DNA of 41,879 nt from a virus. Made by a program: the position numbers and the translations under genes. Every line of letters begins with the position of its first letter. Position 1 is the stretch's first letter. Positions 1 through 41,879 of this stretch are shown in pieces. The stretch spans positions 1 through 41,879 of IMG/VR virus record IMGVR_UViG_3300025096_002860; one strand, 5' to 3'. The notes under the pieces were generated by a model that was not told the origin of the DNA, ran no database searches, and saw nothing but the letters and a program-made list of their open reading frames with translations.

Positions 1-126
1 TAACTGATCGGCCAAGTCGGCAAGTGCCGTTATATCATTAAGCAATGCGCCGGGGCTGATGTCATCGTCTTCCTTAAGTAGCTCTTCCTTGATAATCTCT
101 TTGAGTCTTTGTTTGGTGATTTTCAT
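1..126 (-). CDS. Small protein with MKITK-type leader (3' end outside window)
   Basis: The ATG at 126-124 opens a frame that runs without a stop to the left edge, giving 42 residues, so the C-terminus is missing. The first 15 residues, MKITKQRLKEIIKEE, differ by one residue (K9 for N9) from those of the next gene upstream (128-535), and the DNA is also nearly identical over 47 bases. The rest is acidic and helical (LLKEDDD, then an Ala/Leu/Asp-rich stretch). The start lies one base after the stop of the upstream gene, so the two are probably translated together. The leader contains L-K-E and I-K-E, which match the [I/L]-x-E sites cut by T4-type prohead protease gp21. An internal capsid or core role is therefore possible, but this is inference. 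The function is unknown. Confidence 0.7.
   Translation of the reverse strand, partial: MKITKQRLKEIIKEELLKEDDDISPGALLNDITALADLADQL
80..126 (-). repeat. Leader-coding direct repeat, copy 1
   Basis: These are the first 47 coding bases of the gene at 1-126. By eye they match the first 47 bases of the gene at 128-535 at 43 positions. Two of the four differences are silent third-position changes, another is a silent ACG/ACC change, and one changes N to K. Confidence 0.8.
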
Positions 127-127
127 T

Positions 128-535
128 CTAGGTCACCAGCATCGCATACATGTTGCCGTCTTCATCACGGTCATGGGCCATCTTAAAATAATGAACGCGG
201 CGGCCTCCTTGTTCCAGAGTTTTCTGCGGCATTACAACGATTTCGCCGCCGGGGCCTTGGGTTGGACGGCTTACATACTTATCAAAGTATGCCCGGGAGC
301 GGTCTTGAGCTTCCATGCCGGCTTCACCGCTGGCATCGTATTGATACTCTACCACATAATAATCTGGGCCAAGGGCTTGTTGAATAAGCTGTTCGTCCTC
401 AACATTATAGACATCCCCGCGCATCCCACTTGGAGCCTGATTGTGCTTCGACCATTGAACTTCTAAGCTTTCGGAAAGAGTACGTTGAAGCTCTTCCTTG
501 ATAATCTCGTTAAGTCTTTGTTTCGTAATTTTCAT
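128..535 (-). CDS. Small phage protein with MKITK-type leader
   Basis: This is a 135-aa protein of unknown function. Residues 1-16 (MKITKQRLNEIIKEEL) form a charged amphipathic helix almost identical to the leader of the neighbouring gene at 1-126. A variable Gln/Asn-rich region and a body with mixed beta content follow (VVEYQYDASGEAGME near 60-75, then Arg/Tyr-rich segments). No catalytic motif, membrane segment or signal peptide is visible. The shared leader carries L-N-E and I-K-E, both consistent with the [I/L]-x-E rule of T4 gp21 prohead protease, so it could be a removable capsid-targeting sequence. The gene starts 2 bases after the stop of the gene at 538-972. The coding assignment is firm because it keeps the operon spacing; the role is inference. 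Confidence 0.75.
   Translation of the reverse strand: MKITKQRLNEIIKEELQRTLSESLEVQWSKHNQAPSGMRGDVYNVEDEQLIQQALGPDYYVVEYQYDASGEAGMEAQDRSRAYFDKYVSRPTQGPGGEIVVMPQKTLEQGGRRVHYFKMAHDRDEDGNMYAMLVT
489..535 (-). repeat. Leader-coding direct repeat, copy 2
   Basis: This is the second copy of the 47-base leader segment, at the start of the gene at 128-535. It has the same orientation as copy 1, and identity stops abruptly after the GAAGAGCT block. That pattern suits duplication of a leader module rather than of a whole gene. Confidence 0.8.
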
Positions 536-537
536 TG

Positions 538-972
538 TTATTCCTCTTCAAAGCCTACTACGCCCGGCTCTAGGGGTGCGCCAAAATCTGGTCGTGGAGA
601 GGCATCCTCGCCATCGTCAGCGAAGGCGCGTCGCAGTTGGCTTCTAAAGCACTCCAATTGGTCTGCCATATCAGAGCCTTCCAGAGCCTCGATTGCTGCA
701 TTAAGAATTTCTATATTTATCTCTTCGCTTTCCGGATCGCATGCCGGTACCTGAGGGGGTGCGGGCGGCTCTGCTTTGGCTCTTTCTCCGGCGCTCATAA
801 TGGCACGGACTTCATCCGCGGTATACTCTTCAAGCTTGTTCTGCCTCTTCATGCTGTGAGCAATGGCGACCGCTTGATCCTCTGGGTATCCCTCATCTTT
901 AAGGATCCCGATTTTATCCGAGACTTTGTCTTCGTTTAAAAACTTCTTCCAGTTTTCCATTATAAGCTTCAT
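538..972 (-). CDS. Small protein with MENWKKFLNE leader and SMKR motif
   Basis: This is a 144-aa acidic protein. Two adjacent ATGs lie at 975 and 972. AGGAG sits 3 bases from the first and 6 from the second, so 972 is preferred; a third ATG at 960 would give MENWKKFLNED directly. The segment MENWKKFLNE fits the pattern of T4 capsid-targeting sequences such as MKTYQEFIAE (aromatic at position 4, F-[IL]-x-E at positions 7-10). Next comes a helical segment around residues 18-45 (KVSDKIGILKDEGYPEDQA, ending HSMKRQNKL), a type I associate with many phage and environmental proteins. A Pro/Ala linker and an acidic tail follow. Function is unknown; packaging into the head is inference from the leader. 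Confidence 0.75.
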   Translation of the reverse strand: MKLIMENWKKFLNEDKVSDKIGILKDEGYPEDQAVAIAHSMKRQNKLEEYTADEVRAIMSAGERAKAEPPAPPQVPACDPESEEINIEILNAAIEALEGSDMADQLECFRSQLRRAFADDGEDASPRPDFGAPLEPGVVGFEEE

Positions 973-981
973 CATTTTCTC

Positions 982-13810: not shown

Positions 13811-16800
13811 CTACCTCCTCCTTCTTCGACGTCGGCGACGGGGGGTGAACAGACCCAGAGGATCAAAAATTCTCCTCAGTGTCTCTGCTACGCGGCGACG
13901 CTGACGGCGCCGTGTGGTACGCTGCCGCGCTCTTTGTCGAAGCTGTGCCCTTTCTGCACGAGATGTGCGCCTAGGCGGGCGTTGAGTGCGGCGAGGGACT
14001 CTGGTGGTGGCTGGCCTGGGGCGCCTATTGCGCACCGACTGTGCACGTCGTCGGCGCTGCGTTACGTTGGCGCGAGGTCGGACTGTAGGCACCCTCAAAA
14101 CACCCCTTGGCCGTGGACGCTGCGAGGGCTGTGGCAACGCCATAGCAGTCATGGCTCCGATCACAATTCCTTCGCTGGCTTCTTCTAACAGTGCTGTGCC
14201 AGGTGTCATTGTGAGATCCATGTCTTCAGGTGCGGGGATAAATCTCCGCAAGTCTGGCGGAACTGGGTCTTCCGCATCATCCTCAGGTATAATATCTTCA
14301 GTGGCATACACCACAGTCTGATCCACACTAACTAGCTCCACCATAGAGAAGTAATCATAAGGCCAGTTATAGGAGTATTTGGTCCGAAGAGACGGTTGCA
14401 CTATCGGAGTCTCCGGTGTAAGATTAGTTCGCGTATAAATGTTATAGTCTTTTTCTGCCTTTCGTTTAACTTTAAAAACCATCCACTGAAGCTCACTCGT
14501 TTCAAGATTCCCCTCAAGGAGCTCGTTTACCAGCCTCTTAATCTTAATAGTGGCGGTTGATTTTTTAAATTGGGAAGCTGCCTCTGGGGGTAGGTTCTGC
14601 CACATGTTATAGAGATCCACTTGTGACACTTCCATACTAAACTCAAAGGCATAGAAAGCGAAGGGGGTTACACTCGGGTTGGTTAAGAAATCAAAAGTAG
14701 GGGGGAAAACATATTTATTGAGTAAAGCAATCTGACTTACATATTCATGTGACTGCCTCTGAATGTCAAAGAATCTCCTCTCTCCATTTTGTACTACAAA
14801 AGGAACCGCAACAACGGCTTCTTCAAGTTTTTTGCTAAACGGACAAATTCCCAACTGTGTCTCTTTCCTCTCAAATCCCACGACATCCACCAAAGACTTG
14901 GGCCGGATGAGACCGTAGGTTGAAGAACTTACTTTTTGAGGTAAGTCAGTGAGACTCACAAAGCTTCCTTCACCGCCCTCTAAGGGCTTACCGTGCTGGT
15001 GCCACATGCCGCGAATCTGGAAGCCGGCGGTGGCGGCGGATCCGTATGGATGAAGAGTTCCCGTCGCTTGAGTATACCTCTGAGTATCGACGTTGTAAAA
15101 ATTCTGTATCGGGGTCTCAAATTTAGGCCGAATCAGCCATCGGCTCTTGGTTTCATTGGTGCCTTCTGGAACTGATAGCACTTTTTCAAACACTTCTAGG
15201 CTTGAAGTTATCTGTTGAATGATCGTTGCTCGATCCGCTACATCATAGTTATGAATTATTGGGGAGTACAGCTTATTCTTCACCGAGGGGTCCCGCTCGG
15301 GGTCGCCCCACTGCGTGGCTTTGCTATACTCTACTACTGAATTGCCAATAATGTCGTCTAAGCTAGCGCGGCCGGTCCAGGGAGCTTTGAAAATTATGGT
15401 AGCGTGACTAGATCCATAAAAATGGGAAGGCAGTACGTGTTCGAAACTAGGATATCGAATGGCGCCGAGGCCGGACCCAGTGCCGTAGTTGCTGGAGTTG
15501 GTGCCCGAAAGTATACAAGGAGGACCAAAAGCAGACGCACGACTATACATCCCGAACCCCTTTAAAATGTCGTTCGTAGCCAGGTCGCTGAGTTGTTGGT
15601 CGGTGTAGCCATGGGTGCCGCTGATGGCTGTTCGGTTGGATAAACTGATTTTCATAGCATAATAATCATCTTTTGTAACCGGAGCAAAAGCACCTTCATC
15701 GGCAGATAACAACGACGATTCAGAGGGCGAGCCCAAAAAGAAATTATAAGTCTCGCACAAAAAGTTATCCACCGCATACTTGAAAAGGGGCGATCGCTCG
15801 CCCTTATAAGCAACGCCATTCTGACACCCGGCCCACTCGGATGAGAGGTCGTCCTGGTCTGAGCCATAACTCACATCTGTGCCAGCATGGAGGCTAGCAA
15901 AACTACTGCTGTAAAGACCTGAATCAAAAATTCGACCATTAGGAATGTTATCGGAATTCAAATATCTTTCTGGATCCCGAATGGCTTCAAACGGAATCAT
16001 GTGCATAAAATATCCATTAAACATGTTTTCTCCGGCTGAACTGGAGCCGGCCACGTTTATACAAGGAAAGAAGCCCGGGTTCGGCTTGGTCGCAGAGGGT
16101 GATCCCCATTTACAACTAACAGGGCTCGTGCCTAAGCAATATTCCTCAAGGTAATCGATGTTCCCGGAGTGGTTACTCTCTAGATACATCATACTTGGAG
16201 ACTGATACAGGTTGTAAGGTACCGCACCGTCATAGCCGGCCGGTGGCCCAATGTCGCTAGCCGCGATTGACTGAGAATGGCAGATAACAAAGTTACCCAC
16301 TGCGACGCCGGCTTTAATGGTATTAAATAAAATTCCGGGAGCCATCAGAGGCGCAAAGACATTGCGCTTAAAGGCATTAATGTCATAATCGCCCTGTTGG
16401 GTGTCGGCCTTAGCGATGCCTCCCATCGATTTGGAAAACAGCGTCGATAGCTCCATAGTTCTTTCCACGGGATAAAATCCTTTATAAGGCAAGAACTGAA
16501 GTATTGCATCGCATGTAAGTTCGATAGACTGCCGACGAATAGTGCTCGTAGCAGTATTCTGGTTGGCTAAATTATCATCGACGACCCGGAAATTCTGCAA
16601 AAAGTCGGTGGTAGAGTAGGTCTTAAAGAATTCACTATCTGAGCTATTCGGGGGAGTTCCTCCGCTAAGTGAAAACATGTTATCGAATTTTTGCAAAAAG
16701 TCGCCACCATAATTTTCTACTACAGATTCTACATGCTCACTAATTCTGAATTCTGGAAGTATGGTCATATGTCGCCCAAGTCTATCAATCAGGTTAGAAT

Positions 16801-19800
16801 AATCTACATAAGGCTGATAAGGCTGAATGCCAGCTTGAGCCGGGGCTTCCCACTGCGGCGCCGTAATAATGACATACTCGGCATCTGTAGGATTGGCAGT
16901 AAAATAACTGGCAGTTTGAAAGCTTCTCTGGCCTACACGCAGGGGCATGACATACGTCGCTGTGGTCGACCCTGAGCAGTATCCCCGAGCGCCGCTGCCA
17001 TCGCCGAAGCCGGACGTTCCCCTAGGGGCGAACCACATATAATTATTTATTAAGTCTCCGGCGCCGGAACCGGTGCCCGGCATGTTCATGGTTGAACCGA
17101 TACCACTAGAATTTGCGAACCTCATGTTCGGACCTGCCATGACAAGAGGGGCATCCAAGGGCCACACGCTGGCGCTAGGGTCGGTATGAACGCCCCACGA
17201 ATTTATTGCACCAGTGGCAGGGCTTCGAAATTCTCTCACAGTATTCCAAATGTCTGAGATGTCATAGTTTTCTCTCTTGCGAACCTTCGCAAGGCCCTCG
17301 TTTAAGGCGGTGGGGAGAATCTTCTGACCAGTTCTAATCACCACACTTAAATCTGAGTTGCGGCTAAAATCGACCACAGACGTAAATGCGTTCTCTTCAG
17401 CAGCAGACTTGCGGGCCGTAAGACCTAAACGACTATTCAATCCGTGACTATCAAAGTACTGTAGATCATTGCCGTAACTCACCTTCAAAGACAGATTGTT
17501 AATTGGAGCATCCGGATTATCAGTATTGTCCTCGAAAGCAAAAGTGATGGGCTTCGACCGAGCATAAGAAACTGGGGATTCGATGTAATCGGTGAAGCCA
17601 TTTGACTTAAGGGCACGGCTCTCGCCCTGTCCGGGGCCATTGGAAATCATTGGGGGTCCGTGTACAAGTGTAATCTTGTTCTCTTTTCTTAGGGTCCGGG
17701 CAACTGGGTGGTCACCGCCGCGGATCTGTTTCCATGTTGGCCAGCCGTATGGGCCCTGGCGTTTAAGTATAATGGCGTTAAGAACTGCGGCCTTTCCTGG
17801 GTAAGTCGGGACGACGGTGTGGACGAGGCCGCCAATGACGAACCCTTGGGACGAGGGATTCAGGCTGTATTGATGCGTAAACGGATTAATATAGTTAACG
17901 CGAGACCAGAGTTCCTGATCTGTAGCACTGGGATCCCAGTTATCGACGGTCATCTCCGGGAAGCCAAGAATGTGCTCAGAACTACTAACGGGCTCGTAAA
18001 CTGTAGTATTCATTCCTGCAAAGGATACCCCAAAGCTGGTATATTCGGCCATAGCGAATGACGAGCCGGCATCGAGCCCGAAGAATGCCCAATTGTGGAT
18101 GACATCGAGATGCCGGTATTGGGATGTGTTCACGCCAGTCTGAATGTCGCTGCTGGTAATCAACATGTCCAGAACAGAAGAACTGATACAGGAAGGTCGA
18201 TCCAATCCGATAGGATTAAACGTGGTTTGCTTATCTAAGGAAGCCGTCATCCAAGCATACTGTAACTCTGAACGCGGTATTTGATGCTGGACAAACAAGT
18301 TATCATAGGTCGACGCTGTTCCAATAGCGCCGGCTTGTTTGATTTCCAGGCGACTCAAGGCATTGCGATTGGTCTTGTGCCAGGACGGAAGAACATCATA
18401 AGTGAAGGCTGACACGGAGCCGTAAGCGGCGTCTGTGCCAAAGCGGCCAGAGTGCAACGTTGCGCGTTGGTTTAGACCCCGATTCTTCCCAATTTGGTCC
18501 ACCACGGTAATGGTTTTTGCCGCAAGAGGATCTACAGATGCCGATCCCGACAAGCCATAGTTTATGACTGAGAGGTTATGGTAAGGAAGAGCACTATACA
18601 CCGACATCTCTTCATGTGCGGGGCCCAAGTAGCCTCGGGACATGACTTCATAGCCACTACCGGCAAAACGATTTACAATAACAGTTTGATTTGAATTGAT
18701 GCCACTACGATCGGGGAGTGCATAATCCAAAACTCCAGAACAATTACTATTATACCCACTGTATGTTTTAGTGTAAGTTCCGCCGCCATATATGGCCAAG
18801 TCGCTGCTCGACAATGGTTGGAAATAGAATTCACTGCCGACGCTGGTCTCGGTGACAAGTACATCTGCTTCGGGAATTGGCTCGGTTGACCAGCAGATTC
18901 CCTTCCCGGCGGTGATGTAGGCCATGCCTTCATCACTGAAATTGTACCAAGACGCCAAATTAACTTTATACTCTACAGATGCGGTAAGGTCGACCATTCC
19001 AACATTGGCGCCGGCGAGAGCCTCCGAACCCACTGGACAATTACCTGGAGAGCCCGCCTCCGTAATAGTACTACCACTCGCAATAAGCTGATCAGCCCAC
19101 GCCGAAGATCCAGTGGTATTAACCGATCCGGTCCAATACGCGACGCTGATAATCGCTGTATTGGGACAGCCTTGGGCGGCGGTGAATTCGCCCGGGTTAT
19201 ACCATTGATTTAACAGGCACACACCACCACAAAGATTAATGCTATTAACGGTAGTCGTGGAAGAACCGGTCGGAGCAGACCCAGATCCTGGGCCCGGGCG
19301 ATAATAAGATCCAGTGCCAGCAATATTAACCGCAAAAGAGCCGGATGAGATATAGATGGGATTAAAATCTCCCAAAGTAACGAAGTCGGTCGGAACTCCC
19401 GGGCCCGGGCCTAGGTCATCATCGATGATTGTCGGCATCGGATAAGAAGCATTGTTGTCCGGGTATCCATTATAAACAGCCCCAGTAAGCGCCGTGTTAA
19501 GAAACCATGGGCCGCGGGAATTATCATTCATGATAGAACTGCTATCATCAGGATCTGCGCCGAGGAGCAACCATTGAAGTATGTTGTTTTTCAGAGATGT
19601 GTTCGTTAATTCAACACGCTTGCCTCCACCATATATCTCTTCCACCTCTGCCTGAACAAGGCATTTGTCATAAACTGCATAATCACACATCGAGCCGGTG
19701 AAATTTTGCTGATTGGCGTTGGCCGCGCCGATGTGAGAATTGTATCCAGTGATCGTAGTCGGGCTGCTAGTCGTCGTTGTTGCGCTAGTATCATCCGCCG

Positions 19801-22800
19801 CATTTACATAGAGGGTCGTTGGATCTGAGGCTCCCCCCGAAAAGGCCACGACCACGTGGTACCAGGTCTCGGCAGTGAAAGTCGTGGTTCCCACGGCGCG
19901 GTTGGTGATGGCGCCGCCCTGGAACTGCAATACGGAAGACCCTAGGGTAGTGCCATTGAGGTAAAGCTGGCGACCGTTGATGGAATAGCTGAACAGCCGC
20001 GGGTAGGTATCGCCAAACGTAGCAGCAGGCCGCATCCAAAAAGAAACCGAAAAGGCTTTCGCAGACGCCCCTGATCCACCAATCAAAGATTCCCAAACAG
20101 CTGGGGCGCCTAGATCTACATTGGTCGTAGTACCATTAAAGGCGGCGTACTTGTTGCTGCGCTGGGTTTGTTGACGTAGATAATCGCCATACTCTTTATC
20201 TTGATTGTCCAACGTAAAGACAAGATGTTTCCATCCAGGCTCAGTGCCTATCAACCCGGGCCCCGAGAGCCAATACATGTCCTCCAGAGTGTTCCCGCGC
20301 GCGACGCTGAGTCCGAGCATTGGGCCATCTTGGTTGGAGCCGGACTTTAAAAACACGTGGCGCACCATGTCATTGCTATCGGTACCGCCCCAACCAAGTA
20401 GCGTTTGCTCCTGGCCCTGGTACTCGGAGGGTGCGCCGCCGGCGCTGTAGCCGGTTGCAGACCACACTGTCCCGCCTTGCTGTAAGGTATTATCAGAAGC
20501 ATTGAACAGAATAGAAAAAGTAGATCCACTTCCCGAGAGAGCAGTCCACGCTTGCTCCAGGTCCTGGCCGATCCAACCCACGTTATCACCGTCAATAATC
20601 GCCTCAGTAGCGGCGATACCTCGATAAAACTTATAAACGTACGAGTCTTCTGATGTCTGAACGGTGAGGGGGAATCGGCCGCGAGTAGCCAGGGTTTCAG
20701 GATACAGGGCGAAATCAAACGTCTGCTTCCTAAAATAAGGATCATTCTTGCGTCGAGCTGCGGTTTGTACCACTTCATAATTTTTTTGATAATTTCCTAT
20801 CGGCCCATGAGCCAGCACTCCCGACAAGGTAGTGCCGACAGAAGCCGTCGTCATTTTAATGTTCTGTATGTTGACGGGGCGCTTGGTACCCACATTTCGC
20901 AGTTTATCTCCTCGGGGAAGAGCAGCGTCGTAAAACACCGTACTATTGGGATCATAATTGGGAGAGACCACGCTAATCTCAGTCGCTCCGTTTTCGCCAG
21001 CAACATGAGCAAAACGAATTTTGAAGCCCTCTGCCCGACTATCAGCAGTATCTGGGGTTGAGGTGTCGCTCTGATTCAGGGGTACATGGCGATAGGCACG
21101 GCCGCCGACAAACTTCTCAGTAAAGGGGCCCTGAGCAGGGATGTCAGCATTATAAACCAAATCATGATGGAGATTGGTAAGCAGCGTACCGCTCGCATAA
21201 TTTTCAACAACTTCTCTATTATATCCCGTCTCAACCGAACTAGAGTACAGACTAAAGGGCACCAGAAGGTTACCATTGGCCCTCTGAAGCACTTCACCGC
21301 GAGCGTCGTCGGGGTCAAGTTGGAATCCTAGTCTTTGCTTAAACGCCGGATGAAACACATCTGTAGTGTTTAGCAATTTCTCAACTTGGCTGCCGCGGCC
21401 AACTAAGCGATTAAGCGCCTTTCCGGCGCGGACCGACCCAAAAGGAGTAGTCGCGGTAAATACATAATTGACTCTCTTGTTTTGATTAAAGCCAACGCCT
21501 CCTAGCGTATAATTACCACTTCCCCCAAACCTAAAGGGAGACTGTCTTGCGCGTTTGTTTCCCTTCTCGATGGCCTTTAGATAAACCTGTTTGTTGGTAT
21601 TGACGGGCCCCGTAGATGAAGATAAAACGACATTTCCTCTTTCAGCGCGGGAACGCCACCAAATTGACTTCGCGTCTTGCTCCCCATCAACTGGCGCATG
21701 AATCAATTTCCACGCACTGAAATTGATGGGCTGCGAGGAGCCAATCTGTCTTTTGGAGACCGCATTTGCCGAATAAAATCCTGTACCTTGTGGGTCGCCT
21801 TCGGGCGATGTCTGCATTTCGGCCTGCTCTTCAGCGCCAACTGCAGTACCCTCGATCTGTGGGTCTTGCTTTTTAACGTTTTGAAATTTATGCTGATATT
21901 TGCTTCTCTCAAACATGTGGCTTTCGATAATGGTGCGCACATTGTCGGAGAAATCAGCTGAGGCAGGAACTAGCTGTTCTAGCATTACAGTAAGCGATGA
22001 ATCAAACCACTTATAAAACTCATAGAACTTTTCAAAATCCACTTCATTGTTGCTGACGCGCTGGAAGAATCTCTCTCGCAAAACTCGAAGGCCCTTATAT
22101 TCAGGACGATAGCGATTGACTGGCGCGCCGATGATTGTATGCATGTCTTTGAGGGTGGCAAAGTAGTTGATCATCTCAACCGAAAGAGCTTGGGCCATAC
22201 TCTTTTCGAAAGCAAAAAAGTAATTAATTGGCCGAGAATTACGAGTAAAAATGTTTTGCTCTTGAGCGCCAAGAACCGTAACCATGTCACTTGACTGAAC
22301 ATTTTCGGGAAGCTGCAACTTTGAAGAAACCACAAAATCTTTATCAATACTTCCAGTTGTAGAGGCCGGGAAGCCATATCCGAGGGCGGTGTTCTGCTGA
22401 CATAAAATGTCTCCCAACCAATCGAAACGGGAGGCTGCAGTAGCAGCACTTCCTGAATATTCATCGGCAACTACAAATTGTCCACTAGCGTTCGACCCTG
22501 TATTGTTGGAAAACTCCCAGTTAAATACTAGCGTGTCGGCCTGGAGCACCTCGCCATTTGGCGCCGAATAATCAAAGGGGAACGCATAGAAATGAGGCTG
22601 CAGCGATCCGTAGTTCTGTGTGTCAGCAGCATGAGCCTCCAATACGGCGTCATCCAAATAATTCAACCAATAACGGCATGCACTAACCTTAACATCAGAC
22701 GTGTTCAAGATGGAGCCCGTAAAGTTGGTTCTATTAGCGCCCACGAAGAATCGTTTACTGCCGGTTACAAATTGAGAAACAGGACCCGCAATTGTTCCGC

Positions 22801-25276
22801 TAACAGTAAACTTATTGCGCAAAAGGCCAGCGTCGTACTGAACGCCGTGTAGTTCAATGATGTAGTTGCCACTATCGGCGCCGGCGACACCGGCGCCGGA
22901 TCCGGGACCAGCAGCAGCGTATGGATATCTTTCAGGCTTGATTCGTACAGCTAAATTCCAGTGAGTATTGTCGTACACCTCCTCAAATAGTGGTGATCGC
23001 AACAACGGTACAACGCCAACACCGCTCCCCGTAAGAACAAAGCGGCAGTTATCCGAGGTAATGTCTTCCCTTTCAGTAAAAACTTGATAGTTAACAAAAT
23101 CATCAATTTCCCATGTAGTATCAGTCTGAGATCCCTGAGTGCCATAAACCCCAAACAAAGAAGAGCTTATCGCATTTGTATCAAAATAAAACGAAGCAGC
23201 TGGGTCAGGCTTTTTCGGGAAAAGGATCTGTGTCTCTAGCGTCTGGGCATATCCGCCTGTAAGTCGCGTATCCGCGGGTATAAACCCAGTGGTATTTGTC
23301 GAGCTGTTGGAGTCTTGATATTGAAAAACGGTCGCTGTATAGTTATCTTCTTTATTAAAGTCGACGTACCTATCAGTTACCGACACAATGCGTCGGTTGT
23401 TCTCCATCTCATACTCGATGCCGGCGCCGTACATGTTGAGCTTTATCAGGTCGTCATCAATACCAAAACATCGAATCAAATTACGGAAAGATTTCTCGGT
23501 ACCCTTTGATTTATAAATGTAAACTAAGTTATTATAAATGTTTTGATAAATGGTGTTTTTAACATCCTGGAGGGATTTTTCATAAACTTTATCTTCGCTT
23601 CGGTCTGCTAGTTTTTCTAGGATGTCGGCATCTATAAATAAATCGGGAGCGATGAGGCCGGACGAATTCAAAAGGCGCTCGGCAAAAGGAAGGGGCTTGG
23701 CGCTGCTTGAAGGATAGGTAACATTTTTTAGAGTTGATACCGATTCTATCTGAAGCTGCAGGGTGTCGAAATAGCTCGACATTATTTGGGTCAAATACTT
23801 AAGTTGTTTTTGACCTTCCGCGTCAGCCTCGGTAATCCATGAAGGGATCGAATTATACATCGAAGCATTATTGTCAACATCGTGCTCTGAGCCGGTAAGC
23901 TCCAGTTTGTCACCAAGAGCTATGACTTCCGGATGAAAAGAGTAAATAATGGGATCTTTATATTCGCGTACTGCTGCGGCCGACTCAACAATAGCAGAGT
24001 CTGTAGAACGGGCGCCGTCGACATAACCGGTCCAAGCTCCGTTAGTAACGCGGCCGGAATAGTCCAACACGATAGAATCAGTTGCTGCAACCCCGGTGAT
24101 TCCTTCATTAAACTTATAATAAACTCCGAGGGTGGTATTAACATCCTCCGTAGTTTCCACAAACGGTTTTGGATCGACATTGGACCCACCACCGACTTGA
24201 GTAAACCAATGTCTACCAATGTTCTTGGCGCTGCGCTCAGTTTTCCAATAGCGAAATTCATCCAAAGATGCGGAGAGTTTTCCTGCATAGGCCGGTGCAC
24301 CGGAAGCGCTCGGAGATGTAATCAGCGCTCCGACTGTCGCGCGCAGGGCGCCGGTTACTTCATTAATACTAGAAGTGCCCAAGGTCGCCTGGTTTTCGGG
24401 ACTCCCGTCCACATAGAAAACGCTCTTAAAGCCGGTCGAGGATGACATAAGAGTCAACGCATAATGATGCCACTTACTATCGGCAAGAGATGAGGTGGTA
24501 AAGCCACTCGAAGCGATGGGGCTTTCGAAAACACCTTTGGTGCCAGACATGGCTGTCAAAATAAAAGGATTTGCGCCATCCACAGTGGCGGTGAGCTCTA
24601 GCCGAAGGCGCCCATAGTTATCCGCAGAAGAAGTAATACCGTTCCACAGGTCGAAAACAACCTCTTTCCTGGTCTTGTTGATGTCGAACGCATCCTTCTT
24701 GAGCCAAAACTCCAAAGAAACACCCTTATTTTGCACATCATATTTAAGATTGCTCTCCCGATTCTTTGAAGGTTCATAATAATTGGACCCAGTAAACTGA
24801 ACATCGATGGGCGTCATTCCGCCCGCATTAATGTGAGGGCCGCCTTCTAAATAAATGTATTCTAAGCTCGACGGGAGGCCGTATCCATCGACGATAGTTG
24901 TGCCGTCGGCTAACGCGCCCCAGCCACTTGGGGAAAATAATGCATAACCATTTGTTCGAGGATACTCATTGTTGTATAGATAAAGATCTAAATAGGTTGA
25001 CTCATTTTCCCATTTAACGCGCTCGCGAAGGGAACCATCATAGGGAAAATAATCATAAATTCGCTTTAGAGACTGCTTATAATAATCAACAGCAGACCCA
25101 TAGCGGGCGAAGTTTCTTGGAAGCGAAAAATCTACAGAAGGGATAAAACGCTCTTCGCGAATTATGTCTTCTTGATGGTAGCCAACAGATTCTACTTCAG
25201 CCCCAATTTCTTCGGCTGATTTGTTGGCCAGAGCTTGAATAGATTTTGCTTTATTATAATAATCCTTTAAACTCAT
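13811..25276 (-). CDS. Giant LamG-containing tail/baseplate protein with Arg-rich tail
   Basis: This single uninterrupted 3821-aa frame takes up over a quarter of the window. Residues 185-350 form a LamG/concanavalin-like domain (VSLEFWLKKD, DSKWHHYALTL, FYVDGS). Residues 480-620 are helical, with YKSKGTEKSFRNLIRCFGI, a pattern recalling tail protein I/gp7-type wedge subunits. A second LamG-like region covers about 1540-1700 (GWKHLVFTLDN) and a third, clear one about 1710-1885 (FSVSFWMRP, ETWYHVVVAF, LYVNA). A Cys-containing Gly/Ser/Thr-rich stretch follows at 1990-2200. Residues 3490-3680 form a compact C-terminal domain before 106 residues with 43 Arg and no Lys. Following gp25 and gp6, it probably forms the baseplate periphery and receptor-binding part. 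The LamG calls are by pattern; the wedge-like segment is inference. Confidence 0.8.
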   Translation of the reverse strand: MSLKDYYNKAKSIQALANKSAEEIGAEVESVGYHQEDIIREERFIPSVDFSLPRNFARYGSAVDYYKQSLKRIYDYFPYDGSLRERVKWENESTYLDLYLYNNEYPRTNGYALFSPSGWGALADGTTIVDGYGLPSSLEYIYLEGGPHINAGGMTPIDVQFTGSNYYEPSKNRESNLKYDVQNKGVSLEFWLKKDAFDINKTRKEVVFDLWNGITSSADNYGRLRLELTATVDGANPFILTAMSGTKGVFESPIASSGFTTSSLADSKWHHYALTLMSSSTGFKSVFYVDGSPENQATLGTSSINEVTGALRATVGALITSPSASGAPAYAGKLSASLDEFRYWKTERSAKNIGRHWFTQVGGGSNVDPKPFVETTEDVNTTLGVYYKFNEGITGVAATDSIVLDYSGRVTNGAWTGYVDGARSTDSAIVESAAAVREYKDPIIYSFHPEVIALGDKLELTGSEHDVDNNASMYNSIPSWITEADAEGQKQLKYLTQIMSSYFDTLQLQIESVSTLKNVTYPSSSAKPLPFAERLLNSSGLIAPDLFIDADILEKLADRSEDKVYEKSLQDVKNTIYQNIYNNLVYIYKSKGTEKSFRNLIRCFGIDDDLIKLNMYGAGIEYEMENNRRIVSVTDRYVDFNKEDNYTATVFQYQDSNSSTNTTGFIPADTRLTGGYAQTLETQILFPKKPDPAASFYFDTNAISSSLFGVYGTQGSQTDTTWEIDDFVNYQVFTEREDITSDNCRFVLTGSGVGVVPLLRSPLFEEVYDNTHWNLAVRIKPERYPYAAAGPGSGAGVAGADSGNYIIELHGVQYDAGLLRNKFTVSGTIAGPVSQFVTGSKRFFVGANRTNFTGSILNTSDVKVSACRYWLNYLDDAVLEAHAADTQNYGSLQPHFYAFPFDYSAPNGEVLQADTLVFNWEFSNNTGSNASGQFVVADEYSGSAATAASRFDWLGDILCQQNTALGYGFPASTTGSIDKDFVVSSKLQLPENVQSSDMVTVLGAQEQNIFTRNSRPINYFFAFEKSMAQALSVEMINYFATLKDMHTIIGAPVNRYRPEYKGLRVLRERFFQRVSNNEVDFEKFYEFYKWFDSSLTVMLEQLVPASADFSDNVRTIIESHMFERSKYQHKFQNVKKQDPQIEGTAVGAEEQAEMQTSPEGDPQGTGFYSANAVSKRQIGSSQPINFSAWKLIHAPVDGEQDAKSIWWRSRAERGNVVLSSSTGPVNTNKQVYLKAIEKGNKRARQSPFRFGGSGNYTLGGVGFNQNKRVNYVFTATTPFGSVRAGKALNRLVGRGSQVEKLLNTTDVFHPAFKQRLGFQLDPDDARGEVLQRANGNLLVPFSLYSSSVETGYNREVVENYASGTLLTNLHHDLVYNADIPAQGPFTEKFVGGRAYRHVPLNQSDTSTPDTADSRAEGFKIRFAHVAGENGATEISVVSPNYDPNSTVFYDAALPRGDKLRNVGTKRPVNIQNIKMTTASVGTTLSGVLAHGPIGNYQKNYEVVQTAARRKNDPYFRKQTFDFALYPETLATRGRFPLTVQTSEDSYVYKFYRGIAATEAIIDGDNVGWIGQDLEQAWTALSGSGSTFSILFNASDNTLQQGGTVWSATGYSAGGAPSEYQGQEQTLLGWGGTDSNDMVRHVFLKSGSNQDGPMLGLSVARGNTLEDMYWLSGPGLIGTEPGWKHLVFTLDNQDKEYGDYLRQQTQRSNKYAAFNGTTTNVDLGAPAVWESLIGGSGASAKAFSVSFWMRPAATFGDTYPRLFSYSINGRQLYLNGTTLGSSVLQFQGGAITNRAVGTTTFTAETWYHVVVAFSGGASDPTTLYVNAADDTSATTTTSSPTTITGYNSHIGAANANQQNFTGSMCDYAVYDKCLVQAEVEEIYGGGKRVELTNTSLKNNILQWLLLGADPDDSSSIMNDNSRGPWFLNTALTGAVYNGYPDNNASYPMPTIIDDDLGPGPGVPTDFVTLGDFNPIYISSGSFAVNIAGTGSYYRPGPGSGSAPTGSSTTTVNSINLCGGVCLLNQWYNPGEFTAAQGCPNTAIISVAYWTGSVNTTGSSAWADQLIASGSTITEAGSPGNCPVGSEALAGANVGMVDLTASVEYKVNLASWYNFSDEGMAYITAGKGICWSTEPIPEADVLVTETSVGSEFYFQPLSSSDLAIYGGGTYTKTYSGYNSNCSGVLDYALPDRSGINSNQTVIVNRFAGSGYEVMSRGYLGPAHEEMSVYSALPYHNLSVINYGLSGSASVDPLAAKTITVVDQIGKNRGLNQRATLHSGRFGTDAAYGSVSAFTYDVLPSWHKTNRNALSRLEIKQAGAIGTASTYDNLFVQHQIPRSELQYAWMTASLDKQTTFNPIGLDRPSCISSSVLDMLITSSDIQTGVNTSQYRHLDVIHNWAFFGLDAGSSFAMAEYTSFGVSFAGMNTTVYEPVSSSEHILGFPEMTVDNWDPSATDQELWSRVNYINPFTHQYSLNPSSQGFVIGGLVHTVVPTYPGKAAVLNAIILKRQGPYGWPTWKQIRGGDHPVARTLRKENKITLVHGPPMISNGPGQGESRALKSNGFTDYIESPVSYARSKPITFAFEDNTDNPDAPINNLSLKVSYGNDLQYFDSHGLNSRLGLTARKSAAEENAFTSVVDFSRNSDLSVVIRTGQKILPTALNEGLAKVRKRENYDISDIWNTVREFRSPATGAINSWGVHTDPSASVWPLDAPLVMAGPNMRFANSSGIGSTMNMPGTGSGAGDLINNYMWFAPRGTSGFGDGSGARGYCSGSTTATYVMPLRVGQRSFQTASYFTANPTDAEYVIITAPQWEAPAQAGIQPYQPYVDYSNLIDRLGRHMTILPEFRISEHVESVVENYGGDFLQKFDNMFSLSGGTPPNSSDSEFFKTYSTTDFLQNFRVVDDNLANQNTATSTIRRQSIELTCDAILQFLPYKGFYPVERTMELSTLFSKSMGGIAKADTQQGDYDINAFKRNVFAPLMAPGILFNTIKAGVAVGNFVICHSQSIAASDIGPPAGYDGAVPYNLYQSPSMMYLESNHSGNIDYLEEYCLGTSPVSCKWGSPSATKPNPGFFPCINVAGSSSAGENMFNGYFMHMIPFEAIRDPERYLNSDNIPNGRIFDSGLYSSSFASLHAGTDVSYGSDQDDLSSEWAGCQNGVAYKGERSPLFKYAVDNFLCETYNFFLGSPSESSLLSADEGAFAPVTKDDYYAMKISLSNRTAISGTHGYTDQQLSDLATNDILKGFGMYSRASAFGPPCILSGTNSSNYGTGSGLGAIRYPSFEHVLPSHFYGSSHATIIFKAPWTGRASLDDIIGNSVVEYSKATQWGDPERDPSVKNKLYSPIIHNYDVADRATIIQQITSSLEVFEKVLSVPEGTNETKSRWLIRPKFETPIQNFYNVDTQRYTQATGTLHPYGSAATAGFQIRGMWHQHGKPLEGGEGSFVSLTDLPQKVSSSTYGLIRPKSLVDVVGFERKETQLGICPFSKKLEEAVVAVPFVVQNGERRFFDIQRQSHEYVSQIALLNKYVFPPTFDFLTNPSVTPFAFYAFEFSMEVSQVDLYNMWQNLPPEAASQFKKSTATIKIKRLVNELLEGNLETSELQWMVFKVKRKAEKDYNIYTRTNLTPETPIVQPSLRTKYSYNWPYDYFSMVELVSVDQTVVYATEDIIPEDDAEDPVPPDLRRFIPAPEDMDLTMTPGTALLEEASEGIVIGAMTAMALPQPSQRPRPRGVLRVPTVRPRANVTQRRRRAQSVRNRRPRPATTRVPRRTQRPPRRTSRAERAQLRQRARQRTTRRRQRRRVAETLRRIFDPLGLFTPRRRRRRRRR
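13814..13822 (-). promoter_or_regulatory. AGGAGGAGG ribosome binding site inside poly-Arg codons
   Basis: The last three sense codons of the giant gene are AGG AGG AGG. They form an ideal Shine-Dalgarno sequence 6 bases before the GTG start at 13807. The same bases therefore encode the terminal arginines and drive translation of the next structural gene, and they decide its non-ATG start. Confidence 0.8.
13814..14131 (-). other. Arginine-only basic tail of the giant protein
   Basis: These bases encode residues 3716-3821. By direct count 43 of 106 residues are Arg and none is Lys, with Pro, Thr and Gln filling most of the rest, and the protein ends in nine consecutive Arg. A short hydrophobic segment (RRIFDPLGLF) interrupts the run near residues 3801-3810. 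The segment is likely disordered and could bind nucleic acid, lipopolysaccharide or an acidic virion partner; none of these can be chosen from sequence. Confidence 0.85.
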
Positions 25277-35968: not shown

Positions 35969-37396
35969 TTATCCAGGGGAATCTGTAGCTGAGGATCCAG
36001 AGCTGTCGTCGGGGTCCGGATCGGTTGCGGTTACTGCCTGATTTGCTAGAATTACTTTGCCGGCTTTCTTGACGATCAACTCATAAGCGCCGAAGCCAAG
36101 ATAGTTACCGGCTGCATCTAGTTTTATTGTCTCAGCAACCTTTGCAGTATTGCCTAGGTTTCCTCCGGCTAGGTACGCCGTTTTATTTTCAATCTTATAG
36201 ACCACATCTCCGTGAGAATATATCTCCTTAGCTTTTGGCCCTACCAAGCGTGCGCCTGTAGGGGGCTTAATAAGAACGTCGCCAACATTAGCTTTGATTT
36301 GCGCATTCGAGCGAAGCGATTTATCTCCATGAGCAGGTATGGTTGTAGTCATCCATAAGGACCAGTTGCCCTTCCCTTCTTTGGCTCCTTTGGCGTAAAG
36401 AGTATGAGCACCAGCCTTGGGAAATGAAGAGTCTACTTTTCCAATTACATATGAAACAAAGGCAGCCGACCAAGCGGGCGAGCCTGGTTTATTAGCATCG
36501 GGAGTAATTCCGACGTTTCTATAATAATCTCCAAGTCGCGACTGAACCGAGTCAAGAGACTCCACCTTATAGGTCTTTGTATATCCGGCAGGAGCGAATC
36601 TTTTGTGAGGAGGGGAGCCCCAATAATTTAATTCCTTTTCAACAGCGTCCTTAAAAGTTTGCTTATTGAGATCCTCACCAACAACTAGATCCCCTGGCTC
36701 CAATGTGGGCAGCGCGCTACCCCCCAGGCGCTCTCCTTTAAGTTGATAAACATAATTATCAACTGCCCTATTCACGGCAGGCGTTCCTGGTATCCCCTTA
36801 CCGAATTGGCCTTCGAGAGTGCCTCCAGCACAAGGGTCTTGTACCGCCATAAAAGATGGCGGAATGCTTCCTTCTACGCTAACAATCGTTGGATCCAATA
36901 AGTTTTGAAAGTCACCATATTCCACCTTTACAATAGCACCAATCGGCAAGCCGCCGGCATGTTCTGATGAAACAGAATCTAAAATGTTAACGCGCTGGTA
37001 AGTATACAGTATTGGGTCATGGGTAGAGCGCGGGATCGGTCTAGGCTCGATTTCAGGAATGTAAACTTTATAATAGAGGCTATACCCCTCATAGCGATTA
37101 GTCGACTCCTCGCTGGTCTTGTTATACTCGGCCTGCTTTAGAAAACTTTCACGAGACCCTCCCCCAACGTAGGTCGTGGTTTCATTAAGCACTTGCACCA
37201 CAATTCCGTATAAAGCGTTAACTGAGGTTAATGCATCTTTGGCATAAGCTGCAGCCAGAGCGCTGTTTACATAATCCTGGCCGCTACTACGGCGGCGAGA
37301 AGCTGAGTTATGCACCCCCGATTCTTGAAAGTTATTAAGGACCCCGTACGACAAGTCTGTAAGAGTAAATGCGGAAGAGTCCATTTTGTCATTCAT
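35969..37396 (-). CDS. Tail-associated peptidoglycan hydrolase candidate, DUF2272 domain
   Basis: Residues about 280-445 match DUF2272 (NlpC/P60-CHAP superfamily) in pattern: PAWSAAFVSYVI at 307-318, FPKAGAHTLYAKGA with H331, GDVLIKPP near 372, SHGDVVYKI with H395 and D397, and LAGGNLGNT near 409. Ser310 stands where CHAP enzymes have catalytic Cys, as is usual in DUF2272. Upstream is a roughly 250-residue N-terminal part, including a beta-rich region with GAIVKVEYGD that may dock to the baseplate. It would cleave peptidoglycan during tail penetration, replacing T4 gp5 lysozyme. There is no signal peptide. ATGs lie at 37414, 37396 and 37384; 37396 is preferred because AAGGA lies ten bases upstream. 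The end is an Asp/Ser-rich tail. Confidence 0.75.
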   Translation of the reverse strand: MNDKMDSSAFTLTDLSYGVLNNFQESGVHNSASRRRSSGQDYVNSALAAAYAKDALTSVNALYGIVVQVLNETTTYVGGGSRESFLKQAEYNKTSEESTNRYEGYSLYYKVYIPEIEPRPIPRSTHDPILYTYQRVNILDSVSSEHAGGLPIGAIVKVEYGDFQNLLDPTIVSVEGSIPPSFMAVQDPCAGGTLEGQFGKGIPGTPAVNRAVDNYVYQLKGERLGGSALPTLEPGDLVVGEDLNKQTFKDAVEKELNYWGSPPHKRFAPAGYTKTYKVESLDSVQSRLGDYYRNVGITPDANKPGSPAWSAAFVSYVIGKVDSSFPKAGAHTLYAKGAKEGKGNWSLWMTTTIPAHGDKSLRSNAQIKANVGDVLIKPPTGARLVGPKAKEIYSHGDVVYKIENKTAYLAGGNLGNTAKVAETIKLDAAGNYLGFGAYELIVKKAGKVILANQAVTATDPDPDDSSGSSATDSPG

Positions 37397-37700
37397 CTTC
37401 TGATTGTCCTTCATTCAGAAGATCGAACAACTCTTCCTTGTCTTGAGCTGACAATCCAAATTGTTGAACGTTTTGTTTTTGCAGAAGATTCGCCAATTTT
37501 ACCATCTGCTCGTTCGATCGCTGCAAATTTTCGACGTATTTGGCGGCTATGGGGCCTAACTCCTTGCGAGCCGAATCAGATACCTTCATGTCATTTACGG
37601 CGTCCATCAATAAAGATTTTGCCATAGCGCGATCTTCGCGAATGTTGGTAGTGGTTTCTTCGATGTAGTCGTCTAAATTTAGATTTCGCCGCTTTCCCAT
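37389..37700 (-). CDS. 103-aa protein after the late sigma factor, unknown function
   Basis: This small protein begins MGKRRNLNLDDYIEETTTNI and is almost entirely helical. It has a KYVENLQRSNEQMVKLANLL stretch at about 54-73 and an acidic C-terminus (KEELFDLLNEGQSEDE). Similar small proteins occur in marine T4-like phages in my recollection, without assigned function. It overlaps the end of the gp55-like gene by 22 bases and the start of the lysin gene by several bases, so all three are translationally coupled. The hydrophobic-acidic ELFDLL near the C-terminus loosely resembles sliding-clamp-binding tails of late-transcription proteins such as T4 gp33. That is a weak resemblance only. Confidence 0.7.
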   Translation of the reverse strand: MGKRRNLNLDDYIEETTTNIREDRAMAKSLLMDAVNDMKVSDSARKELGPIAAKYVENLQRSNEQMVKLANLLQKQNVQQFGLSAQDKEELFDLLNEGQSEDE

Positions 37701-39326: not shown

Positions 39327-40184
39327 TTATCCTCCTATAAAATTTAATATGTATTCTTCTAATTTAACTTGCGGCGTCCATGTCGTCATCTCCGTCGTTT
39401 TAGAAATGTCAGCCAAAGTGTTGCGTGCTTCGCCCGGGCGACCGGGGATGTATTCCGCAGTGCCACCGAACATGGCAGCGAGTTCATTGATTGAGTGGTT
39501 TGTGCCGGTTCCTAAATTAAAGACGTCCCCGACAAACTCATGCTTAGAAATAGCCAGCAAGCCAGCGCAAATGTCCCCTACGTGTGTAAAGTCTCGTCTC
39601 TGCTCTCCATCGCCTGTGATACTCAAAGGTTCGTTCTCTCGATGCTTCTTTTCAAAAATGCCCACAACCGTGGCATAATCCCCCATTTCAGGCTGTCGCG
39701 GGCCGTATACATTGAAGAAACGAGCGATCGCCGTAGATACCCCAAAACACTTTGCATATAGCTGACAGATTTCTTCTCCGTGCCACTTAGCAAATGCATA
39801 AGGATTTAAATAAGGGCCCCCGTAAAATGAACTTGAGCCGGCATAAACGACTTTTGCGCCGGATTGCCGGGCAAACTCGCAGACCTCAGCAGTGCCGTAT
39901 GAGTCAATACTTATCGTCTCAAGAGGCTTTTTAAAGCTGGGCTGGATCCTGGCTAAGGCTGCCAAATGAAAAACGACATCAAATTTTTCGCCGCCTCTTT
40001 TCTCATTGATGGTGCGGATGTCTTCAATCCAATAGGTAACATCTGGTCGACGATAGTTTTCACTACTAGAGTCTGAGATCAGGTTGTCTATTACTGTCAC
40101 CTCATGATCGCCAGTGCTCATTACTAAATCGACCAAATTCGACCCAATAAACCCAAGCCCACCAGTTACTAAAACTTTTCGCAT
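39327..40184 (-). CDS. NAD-dependent nucleotide-sugar epimerase/dehydratase (extended SDR)
   Basis: This 285-aa Rossmann enzyme begins MRKVLVTGGLGFIGSNLVDL. The NAD-binding loop TGGLGFIGS is at residues 7-15, an acidic residue follows beta-2 (VIDN at 31-34), SSS occurs at 117-119 and the catalytic YxxxK is Y129-x-x-x-K133. FFNVYGPRQP near 152 and RRDFTHVGD near 190 are typical of UDP-glucose 4-epimerase-like enzymes, which invert or dehydrate the sugar of a nucleotide sugar. Substrate cannot be fixed from sequence. GAGAGG lies nine bases before its start, and 1 base separates it from the fucose synthase gene. It would supply an extra sugar to the same glycan as the fucosyltransferase. Confidence 0.88.
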   Translation of the reverse strand: MRKVLVTGGLGFIGSNLVDLVMSTGDHEVTVIDNLISDSSSENYRRPDVTYWIEDIRTINEKRGGEKFDVVFHLAALARIQPSFKKPLETISIDSYGTAEVCEFARQSGAKVVYAGSSSFYGGPYLNPYAFAKWHGEEICQLYAKCFGVSTAIARFFNVYGPRQPEMGDYATVVGIFEKKHRENEPLSITGDGEQRRDFTHVGDICAGLLAISKHEFVGDVFNLGTGTNHSINELAAMFGGTAEYIPGRPGEARNTLADISKTTEMTTWTPQVKLEEYILNFIGG

Positions 40185-40185
40185 G

Positions 40186-41103
40186 CTATTTGCCTCTCAA
40201 AACGCTATAATTGTCTTCAAACCATTTACAAGTATTAGACAAGCCTTCTTCAAAAGAAGTATAACTTATTGAACTAAAAGATTTAAGTCTCTCTCCATCG
40301 GAGGGCTTTTTCACTTGACCCTTAGGCATTGAGGTGTCCCACACTATTTCATTAGTGAAATCAAAAATCTCTGCGATTTTTTCGGCCACATCTTTAATTA
40401 GGTGTTCTTGTGTATTTCCCACGTTAAGAGGTTCCGCCCCATCGTACTCATTCAATAACTGTACCAGTATGGTCGCAAGATCCAATGCATAGGTAAATTC
40501 TCTATAAACCTGGCCATCGCCCCACAACACCGCATTAGTATCGTTTTGTCTGGCTTCATAAATTTTTCTGATCATGGCAGGAATGACGTGAGAATTATCT
40601 AAGTCGAAATAATCATTTTCACCGAACAAATTGTTGGGTATAACAGTGATAAAGTTGCAATCGTATTGTGCTCGATAGGCGCGAGACTGGACGTCCAGCA
40701 TCCTTTTGGCGTACGCGTACCCGTAATTAGACTGGTGGGGTGGCCCTATATGCATCGATTCTTCTCTGAGAGGGTAGGGTGCCTCGCGCGGGTACACGCA
40801 TGTACTCAACAAAGACAAAACCTTTTCCACTTTCGCGATGCGGGCGCCCTCTAGAACGTTGGTATTAATCAGTATGTTATCGCAATAAAACGACCCCAAA
40901 TTCTCCATGTTGGCCTTTACGCCGCCGACGCGGGCTGCCAAGTGAATTACCCGAGAAGGATTAAAACGAGAATAAAGCTCTTCCGTTTGATAGGGACAGC
41001 GCAAATCCGCATCCCGAGAAGACACATAAACAGCATCAGCCAGAACGGCCTGTAACGCCGTTCCAACCATACCAGTGCCTCCAGTAACCAGTGTGGTCCC
41101 CAT
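40186..41103 (-). CDS. fcl: GDP-L-fucose synthase
   Basis: This 305-aa enzyme converts GDP-4-keto-6-deoxy-D-mannose to GDP-L-fucose by 3,5-epimerisation and NADPH reduction. It begins MGTTLVTGGTGMVGTALQAV, with the dinucleotide loop at 7-15. AARVGGVKAN at 56-65 is a family hallmark. The catalytic set is present: S100, C102 in LLSTCVYP, Y129 and K133 in YGYAYAKRM, and H172 in DLDNSHVIPA, matching E. coli S107, C109, Y136, K140 and H179. The usual length is about 310-320, so it is complete. A GDP-mannose 4,6-dehydratase (gmd) would be the previous step; it is not in the window and may lie beyond the right edge or come from the host. AGGA precedes its start by seven bases. Confidence 0.93.
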   Translation of the reverse strand: MGTTLVTGGTGMVGTALQAVLADAVYVSSRDADLRCPYQTEELYSRFNPSRVIHLAARVGGVKANMENLGSFYCDNILINTNVLEGARIAKVEKVLSLLSTCVYPREAPYPLREESMHIGPPHQSNYGYAYAKRMLDVQSRAYRAQYDCNFITVIPNNLFGENDYFDLDNSHVIPAMIRKIYEARQNDTNAVLWGDGQVYREFTYALDLATILVQLLNEYDGAEPLNVGNTQEHLIKDVAEKIAEIFDFTNEIVWDTSMPKGQVKKPSDGERLKSFSSISYTSFEEGLSNTCKWFEDNYSVLRGK

Positions 41104-41104
41104 C

Positions 41105-41879
41105 TTAGATCCTCGTCCATGTGGGGGGCATTAAATCGGCTGTTTCGCGGGCATTATCTTGTGTGCGGGCCGGTCCGAACCACTCCAGAGGGCAAACCAC
41201 TTTTTTGTTTGGGTTTTCGTTTAAGAGTGCGCCCCACCAAGAAAAGGTTGAATTTGCAATTACATTATGTTTCATTCTGCTCATTAAAAATAAATCAATG
41301 ATGTCCATTTCGCCTCGCACCAAAACAACATTTTCTTCTAGAAGAGGCGCCAGGGTGCTCTCGCACCACTCTATGTCATCACTAAAAAGTACAACCTTAG
41401 AGTCCTCCCCAATTTCATCTAAGGCGCGGCGATAATAGTCGGCAGTAAGAGTGGCATAATTAGATTGGAGATTCATATAATCGCCGCGGCGCACATGCAC
41501 GGCGACAGTGTTATCCAAACTCAATACATCTGCATACTTATTTCGAGCAACCTCCGTTAGCTCGGCCGGTATTCTAAACGCATCCCTAATTTTTTTAAGA
41601 TTATGATAGAAATACTTGTAGGATTGGTAGTGGCCCCTTAGGCACATGTTGTCTCGAAACGGAATCTCATTATAAATCGTGCTCGTAAACGGAGTCTCTT
41701 GATGGACACACTCAACAAAGGACTTGCTGCCCCATGTCTTCAGGTTTGAAAAAATAGTATTTCCATAAAAGACATAGGGCGGAAAAGCGAGATCTGGAAA
41801 TACCGCCTCCACATCATTGTCGATCGCGAGCGACAGGGTGGCTGCTATAACACACATCTGATTTCCAAGGCCCGGGTTT
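41105..41879 (-). CDS. Alpha-1,2-fucosyltransferase, GT11 family (5' end outside window)
   Basis: The frame is open to the right edge. The seven codons before the internal ATG at 41857 read PGLGNQM-type sequence (codons for P, G, L, G, N, Q then M), matching the N-terminal GGLGNQMF motif of GT11 fucosyltransferases. The gene therefore starts outside the window and the internal ATG is not the start. HVRRGDY (residues 120-126 counted from that ATG) is the GDP-fucose-binding HxRRxDY motif, and NSTFSWWGA near 202-210 is the second hallmark. It transfers L-fucose in alpha-1,2 linkage to an acceptor glycan. Its product donor is made by the fcl gene one base downstream. The target may be host lipopolysaccharide or virion protein. 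Confidence 0.9.
   Translation of the reverse strand, partial: NPGLGNQMCVIAATLSLAIDNDVEAVFPDLAFPPYVFYGNTIFSNLKTWGSKSFVECVHQETPFTSTIYNEIPFRDNMCLRGHYQSYKYFYHNLKKIRDAFRIPAELTEVARNKYADVLSLDNTVAVHVRRGDYMNLQSNYATLTADYYRRALDEIGEDSKVVLFSDDIEWCESTLAPLLEENVVLVRGEMDIIDLFLMSRMKHNVIANSTFSWWGALLNENPNKKVVCPLEWFGPARTQDNARETADLMPPTWTRI

Follow-up and report, generated by a model that had tools for sequence, protein, structure and literature searches.

Short N-terminal signals which direct phage proteins to the head are of a known kind, as exemplified by the capsid targeting sequence (CTS) of T4 and the signal of the phage P1 Dar proteins. The N-terminus of T4 IPIII, MKTYQEFIAE, was verified in T4 entries that bear the annotation internal head protein. 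As described in PMC9026906, residues 4 and 7 of the T4 CTS serve targeting and residues 8 and 10 serve processing, and the cleavage motif of gp21 is L/I-x-E; the same paper reports for phiKZ and SPN3US many head proteins with removable propeptides, which are cut after Glu at redundant sites. The T-even internal proteins form a diverse set in which the CTS alone is conserved (PMC3012670). In phage P1, Dar proteins carry an N-terminal capsid targeting sequence and the first 30 residues of DarB are sufficient (PMC9024508).

In our study, a stretch of 41,879 nucleotides from the IMG/VR virus record IMGVR_UViG_3300025096_002860 (the window) has been analysed, which begins with three consecutive minus-strand genes carrying N-terminal leaders of two families, T1 and T2. 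Gene A (1..126) is truncated by the window edge with 42 aa visible, its full-length form of 84 aa being found at L015:7406-7660, and it joins the T1 leader MKITKQRLKEIIKEEL (79..126) to an unrelated body. Gene B (128..535, 135 aa) has the T1 leader MKITKQRLNEIIKEEL at 488..535. Directly after gene B lies gene C (538..975, 145 aa), whose second type of leader, the T2 leader MKLIMENWKKFLNE at 931..972, was missed by the first-pass annotation; its body (DQAVAIAHSM region) is related to T1-leader proteins of loci L005 and L020. Neither gene A nor gene B has a match in Pfam or PHROG families, and structure prediction from the gene B alignment was of low confidence (pLDDT 39.8), the helix at residues 5-21 alone standing out near pLDDT 60. 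Elsewhere in the window, a gene beside the baseplate genes (13811-25276) encodes a protein of 3821 aa whose C-terminus is extremely rich in Arg, and the late sigma factor is adjoined at 39327-41878 by what appear, by eye from the translations, to be a fucosyltransferase-like gene and two genes of the NDP-sugar epimerase/reductase type. From the comparisons given below, we consider it probable (about 0.8) that the leaders are cleavable capsid-targeting tags on a large swappable cargo set of Far-T4-like marine phages; the first-pass interpretation as a whole is partly supported.

The T1 leader, MKITKQRL[KN]EIIKEEL, was found at the N-terminus of at least 357 distinct proteins encoded by IMG/VR loci, the genes being arranged in tandem. 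Its exact DNA pattern occurs in 19 IMG/VR stretches, several of them with two to three exact copies, and these loci show tandem runs of 3-6 genes having nothing in common except the leader. A looser T1 pattern is present in at least 120 IMG/VR stretches, and matches to the T2 pattern (consensus MKLLxENWRxYLxE) likewise in at least 120. Among bacterial and archaeal genomes (257 Gb), the looser T1 pattern was found in only seven stretches, all in metagenome-assembled genomes, and several of these are marine and are probably viral contigs. The search patterns fix some residues, and only tests on free positions count as tests. In loci fetched otherwise, the anchor MK[IL][TS]xxxL alone gave 26 matches against 0-1 in codon shuffles, so the recurrence of T1 is not due to chance. 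At the level of whole records, the T1 pattern was present in all 16 leader records with 1-18 copies each (18 in the 293-kb G022) and the T2 pattern in 13 of the 16, whereas neither was found in 12 random long contigs (habitat-unmatched) or in five T4-superfamily isolates; all six records selected by T2 alone also carry T1. Annotated phage isolates queried with 20-23-residue leaders showed no clear T1 or T2 leader. Four T1-like starts were observed in LR756508, an uncultured 484-kb phage record, in which several genes (locus L296) start with M[VA]xxxxLLxE, which may represent a third type of leader. Around nine T2-leader genes lie nearly back to back at G043:1500-9500 (L375) and around five at G051:12500-23500 (L374), with unrelated bodies in both. 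T1-like helices were also seen in internal or C-terminal positions of leader proteins (L097:484-1611, L049:4972-5514, L050:1518-2267, L135:3986-4885 and others), 10 in 333 bodies against a mean of 0.9 and a maximum of 6 in shuffles, and these recall the C-terminal propeptide of T4 Alt.

The bodies behind the leaders are highly diverse, as 511 leader proteins fell into 363 body clusters (BLAST E 1e-4), nine of which contain both leaders. The clearest swap is that of gene B, which has homologs with the T2 leader in L022 and L020; the body at L022:10004-10396 is 88% identical, yet this protein starts with the T2 leader MKLIMENWKKFINEEE. Similarly, a P-loop polynucleotide-kinase-like protein (AAA_33, E 1.4e-12) has T1 in L118 and L085 and T2 in L235 at 64% identity, a 2H-phosphoesterase-like protein has T1 at L118:297-797 and T2 at L163:12063-12728 (both near the tRNA_lig_CPD cut-off), and L003 and L074 provide a further swap pair. 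Many T2 proteins show the start of a recognisable domain core a few residues past the leader, for instance of the HAD phosphatase-like, P-loop kinase or GDSL lipase type. Pfam gave no family for most of the leader-protein bodies, and the matches obtained were single and varied. YHGT motifs in several T2 proteins suggested an ADP-ribosyltransferase, which was unsupported by Pfam (best E 0.11) or PDB sequences and remains a lead; structure prediction for one such T2 protein was of low confidence (pLDDT 36.6). The number of body clusters, the leader swaps and the common tandem arrays bear out the earlier suggestion of an address tag copied onto unrelated cargo, and the sequences make a strong case for a tag.

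The coding starts of genes A and B are identical at 43 of 47 bases, as had been reported, and are 92% alike over 48 nt; the complete divergence after the shared MKITKQRL[NK]EIIKEE was also confirmed, with 15 of the next 52 bases and 9 of the 20 upstream bases being identical. The adjacency of the two genes and the likeness of their starts would fit a recent duplication with diverged bodies and no tag function, but the occurrence of the same leader on hundreds of unrelated bodies already contradicts this, and the exchange of one leader for the other on the same body also speaks against it, making duplication scarcely credible. As a second alternative, the leader might act at the level of DNA or RNA, as a promoter, translation enhancer or recombination site, and be coding by accident, to which the nearly identical gene-start DNA and the apparent shuffling of blocks between genes would correspond. 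However, only 5 of the 16 leader codons differ between genes A and B, and four of these differences are synonymous, which indicates that conservation acts on the protein. Moreover, the upstream DNA is not in common, leader copies within one genome vary at many third positions, and two leaders unrelated in DNA swap on one body, and hence an accidentally coding element is very unlikely.

The leaders were compared with the T4 CTS in an ungapped alignment with an offset of four. In this alignment, W8, F/Y11, L12 and E14 of T2 correspond to Y4, F7, I8 and E10 of T4, and T1 has L8, I11, I12 and E14 at these positions, which is aliphatic where T4 has Tyr and Phe. With residues 9-16 left free and loci fetched otherwise, T1 showed Ile/Leu at position 12 in 26/26 and Glu at position 14 in 24/26, and T2 showed a hydrophobic residue at position 12 in 25/27 and Glu at position 14 in 18/27.

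A further signal lies behind T1. In residues 17-25, [L/I] two positions before Glu was seen 132 times against 62.3 expected (z 12.6, column-wise shuffles), in 280 proteins kept after removal of related bodies, with common leader ancestry left in, the leader viruses being related and not independent samples and the shuffles ignoring phylogeny. The spacings of 1, 3, 4 and 5 showed no excess in the same 280 proteins (z -1.2 to 0.7), and residues 30-45 of T1 proteins had no [L/I]-x-E excess at spacing 2. An excess confined to spacing 2, in any register, points to a protease motif, since spacings 3 and 4 would be expected to prevail in an amphipathic helix. A second [L/I]-x-E within residues 18-25 is present in 155 of the 280 T1 proteins against 27 of 280 for the control residues 40-47; its register floats (commonest E22, E21, E18 and E19), Asn is enriched 6.8-fold at P2, and Ala, Gly or Ser is frequent at P1'. 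The T2 site shows the same P2 preference, with Asn enriched 13-fold. This second site is missing in about 42% of T1 proteins, and 50 of these 119 have [VMFY]-x-E instead. Behind T2, an extra [L/I]-x-E was found in only 12 of 128 proteins, which fits E14 of T2 as the cut. The internal I-x-E of T1 (E14) was given less weight as the cut, as Glu almost invariably follows it at P1' and the EEL block belongs to the conserved helix.

The cut had earlier been placed within the leader itself, at L-x-E or I-x-E; in this detail our reading differs, and the second [L/I]-x-E at residues 17-26 is the likelier position. Cleavage in T1 proteins is therefore likely at L17-K-E19 in gene A (70..78) and at L20-S-E22 in gene B (470..478), where the mature N-terminus would be SLEVQW, and in gene C it is predicted at L12-N-E14 in leader numbering (931..939). 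The evidence for cutting is statistical. T1 (MKITxxxLxxIIKEEL) is best read as a docking helix which keeps its cut site in a short linker behind, and T2 as a leader that would combine docking and cut site in 14 residues.

The assignment of the tag to the capsid gained indirect support from the protease, from gene placement and from the [L/I]-x-E motif behind the leader. A gp21-type protease had been named as something to look for; no PF03420-type protease lies inside the window, and one is present in an abutting contig. Positions 53077-53203 of IMGVR_UViG_3300025096_000026 (G010) equal window positions 1-127, exact over 127 bases at both contig ends; this resembles a k=127 assembly-graph junction, and G010 is probably a neighbouring piece of the same viral population, a link which rests on these 127 bases. 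G010 has the protease at 37087-37524 together with portal and gp23. It also supplies further leader-bearing proteins, which had been another object of the proposed search, namely three more T1 genes, one of them being gene A in the overlap, and a T2 gene for a 176-aa protein, MKLIMEGWREFLQEQ, which is flanked by the portal and protease genes. The same interval holds a T2-type gene in G018 and in G020, accompanied in G020 by two T1 genes.

Among the 30 T1-chosen records, 18 have a PF03420 protease above the curated cut-off and 21 a portal (PF07230). In the three portal-positive, protease-negative records, the portal is about 2-3 kb from the contig end on the protease side, and in leader records with an intact head block (portal plus downstream block) the protease was found in 18 of 18. 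Among T2-chosen records, 8 of 12 exceed 80 bits for PF03420 against 1 of 12 random long contigs (habitat-unmatched); some other random contigs gave about 46-51 bits in frames of 646-736 aa. gp23 was detected in 13 of 20 leader records, and its pro-region terminates at L-[RK]-E, directly ahead of the mature part, in all 12 leader-bearing head regions that were read. The nearest isolate gp23s are those of Microcystis phage Mel-JY01, Flavobacterium phage immuto and Rhodothermus phage RM378. As head genes mark the viral lineage, the co-occurrence of leader and protease could reflect common ancestry. A gene near the protease was also seen to start with a T1-like helix, MKKTELKKILKPLIKECIKEVIFEEG at L280:11042-11494 and MKKEQIKETLKPIIKQCIKEVLFEEG at L282:2313-2735, and it may possibly encode a prohead core protein; a gp22-like scaffold is encoded at L280:3419-4573.

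The leaders could instead be docking helices that stay uncut and serve either a phage complex in the cytoplasm or a virion part other than the head, for instance the tail or the baseplate. Matches to cell-wall enzymes (M23, YkuD, endolysin-like) or to tape-measure families, which are usually tail-borne, were obtained for some of the tagged bodies, and some, such as the guanylate kinase and endolysin-like bodies, are not obvious head cargo. Further, the window neighbours of the leader genes are primase and tail genes, with no head genes adjoining. On the other hand, the floating [L/I]-x-E directly behind T1, free of helix-like spacing, fits a protease site, the P2 Asn preference is common to T1 and T2 sites, leader genes lie inside the portal-to-protease block, and T2 matches the T4 CTS position by position. 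Docking of uncut leaders outside the head is consequently regarded as unlikely, though far from negligible.

If the leaders are capsid-targeting tags, the amphipathic N-terminal helix would dock a newly made cargo protein on the scaffold core of the assembling prohead, and the phage gp21-type protease would cut after [L/I]-x-E, releasing the cargo inside the head, from which it would be ejected along with the DNA. We infer docking and cutting from the sequence patterns, and packaging and injection by analogy with T4, as treated in PMC3012670 and PMC9026906. More tentatively, and with somewhat less than an even chance, Far-T4-like marine phages may possess a plug-in delivery arrangement with two exchangeable capsid-address leaders, hundreds of cargo families and, in a single virus, as many as eighteen cargo genes or more, each virion bringing a mixture of proteins for early host takeover and counter-defence; the cargo would include 2H phosphoesterases, polynucleotide-kinase-like proteins, and NUDIX and GDSL hydrolases. 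Proteins that enter along with the DNA act ahead of all phage gene expression, as is the case for the anti-restriction proteins T4 IPI and P1 Dar. Nearly all tagged bodies are without a known family, and if the tag reading is true, a 16-residue signature would read off the head-packed proteins of an abundant uncultured phage group from sequence alone, and the tagged proteins could be taken directly as candidates for counter-defence and takeover. With the leader-swap pairs, docking and cut residues of such signals could also be dissected by reporter fusions. The literature searched contained no description of the leader sequences, of the exchangeable pair, of a separate linker for the cut or of a repertoire of this size, and neither leader was printed there in a phage context.

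In comparison to the known systems, the P1 Dar proteins share an N-terminal signal leading to the capsid, with anti-restriction cargo in P1 (PMC9024508), whereas their signal, protease and head type are different and only six proteins are involved. The ejection proteins of phiKZ and SPN3US are alike in that a gp21-like protease cuts removable propeptides; in phiKZ the cut motif is S/A-x-E, and the text read notes no common short leader on tandem small genes. The T4 CTS of IPI-III and Alt is similar in being a short N-terminal leader on diverse bodies with an [L/I]-x-E motif, and gp21 (PF03420), gp20 and gp23 are present in the same viruses as the leaders, whereas no tagged body here was matched to IPI-III. 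The T4 CTS joins docking and cut in 10 residues and T2 would do likewise in 14, whereas T1 is without equivalents of Tyr4 and Phe7 and would probably be cut in a linker of its own. Moreover, unlike T4, these marine phages have two exchangeable leaders, with up to 18 T1 genes per record.
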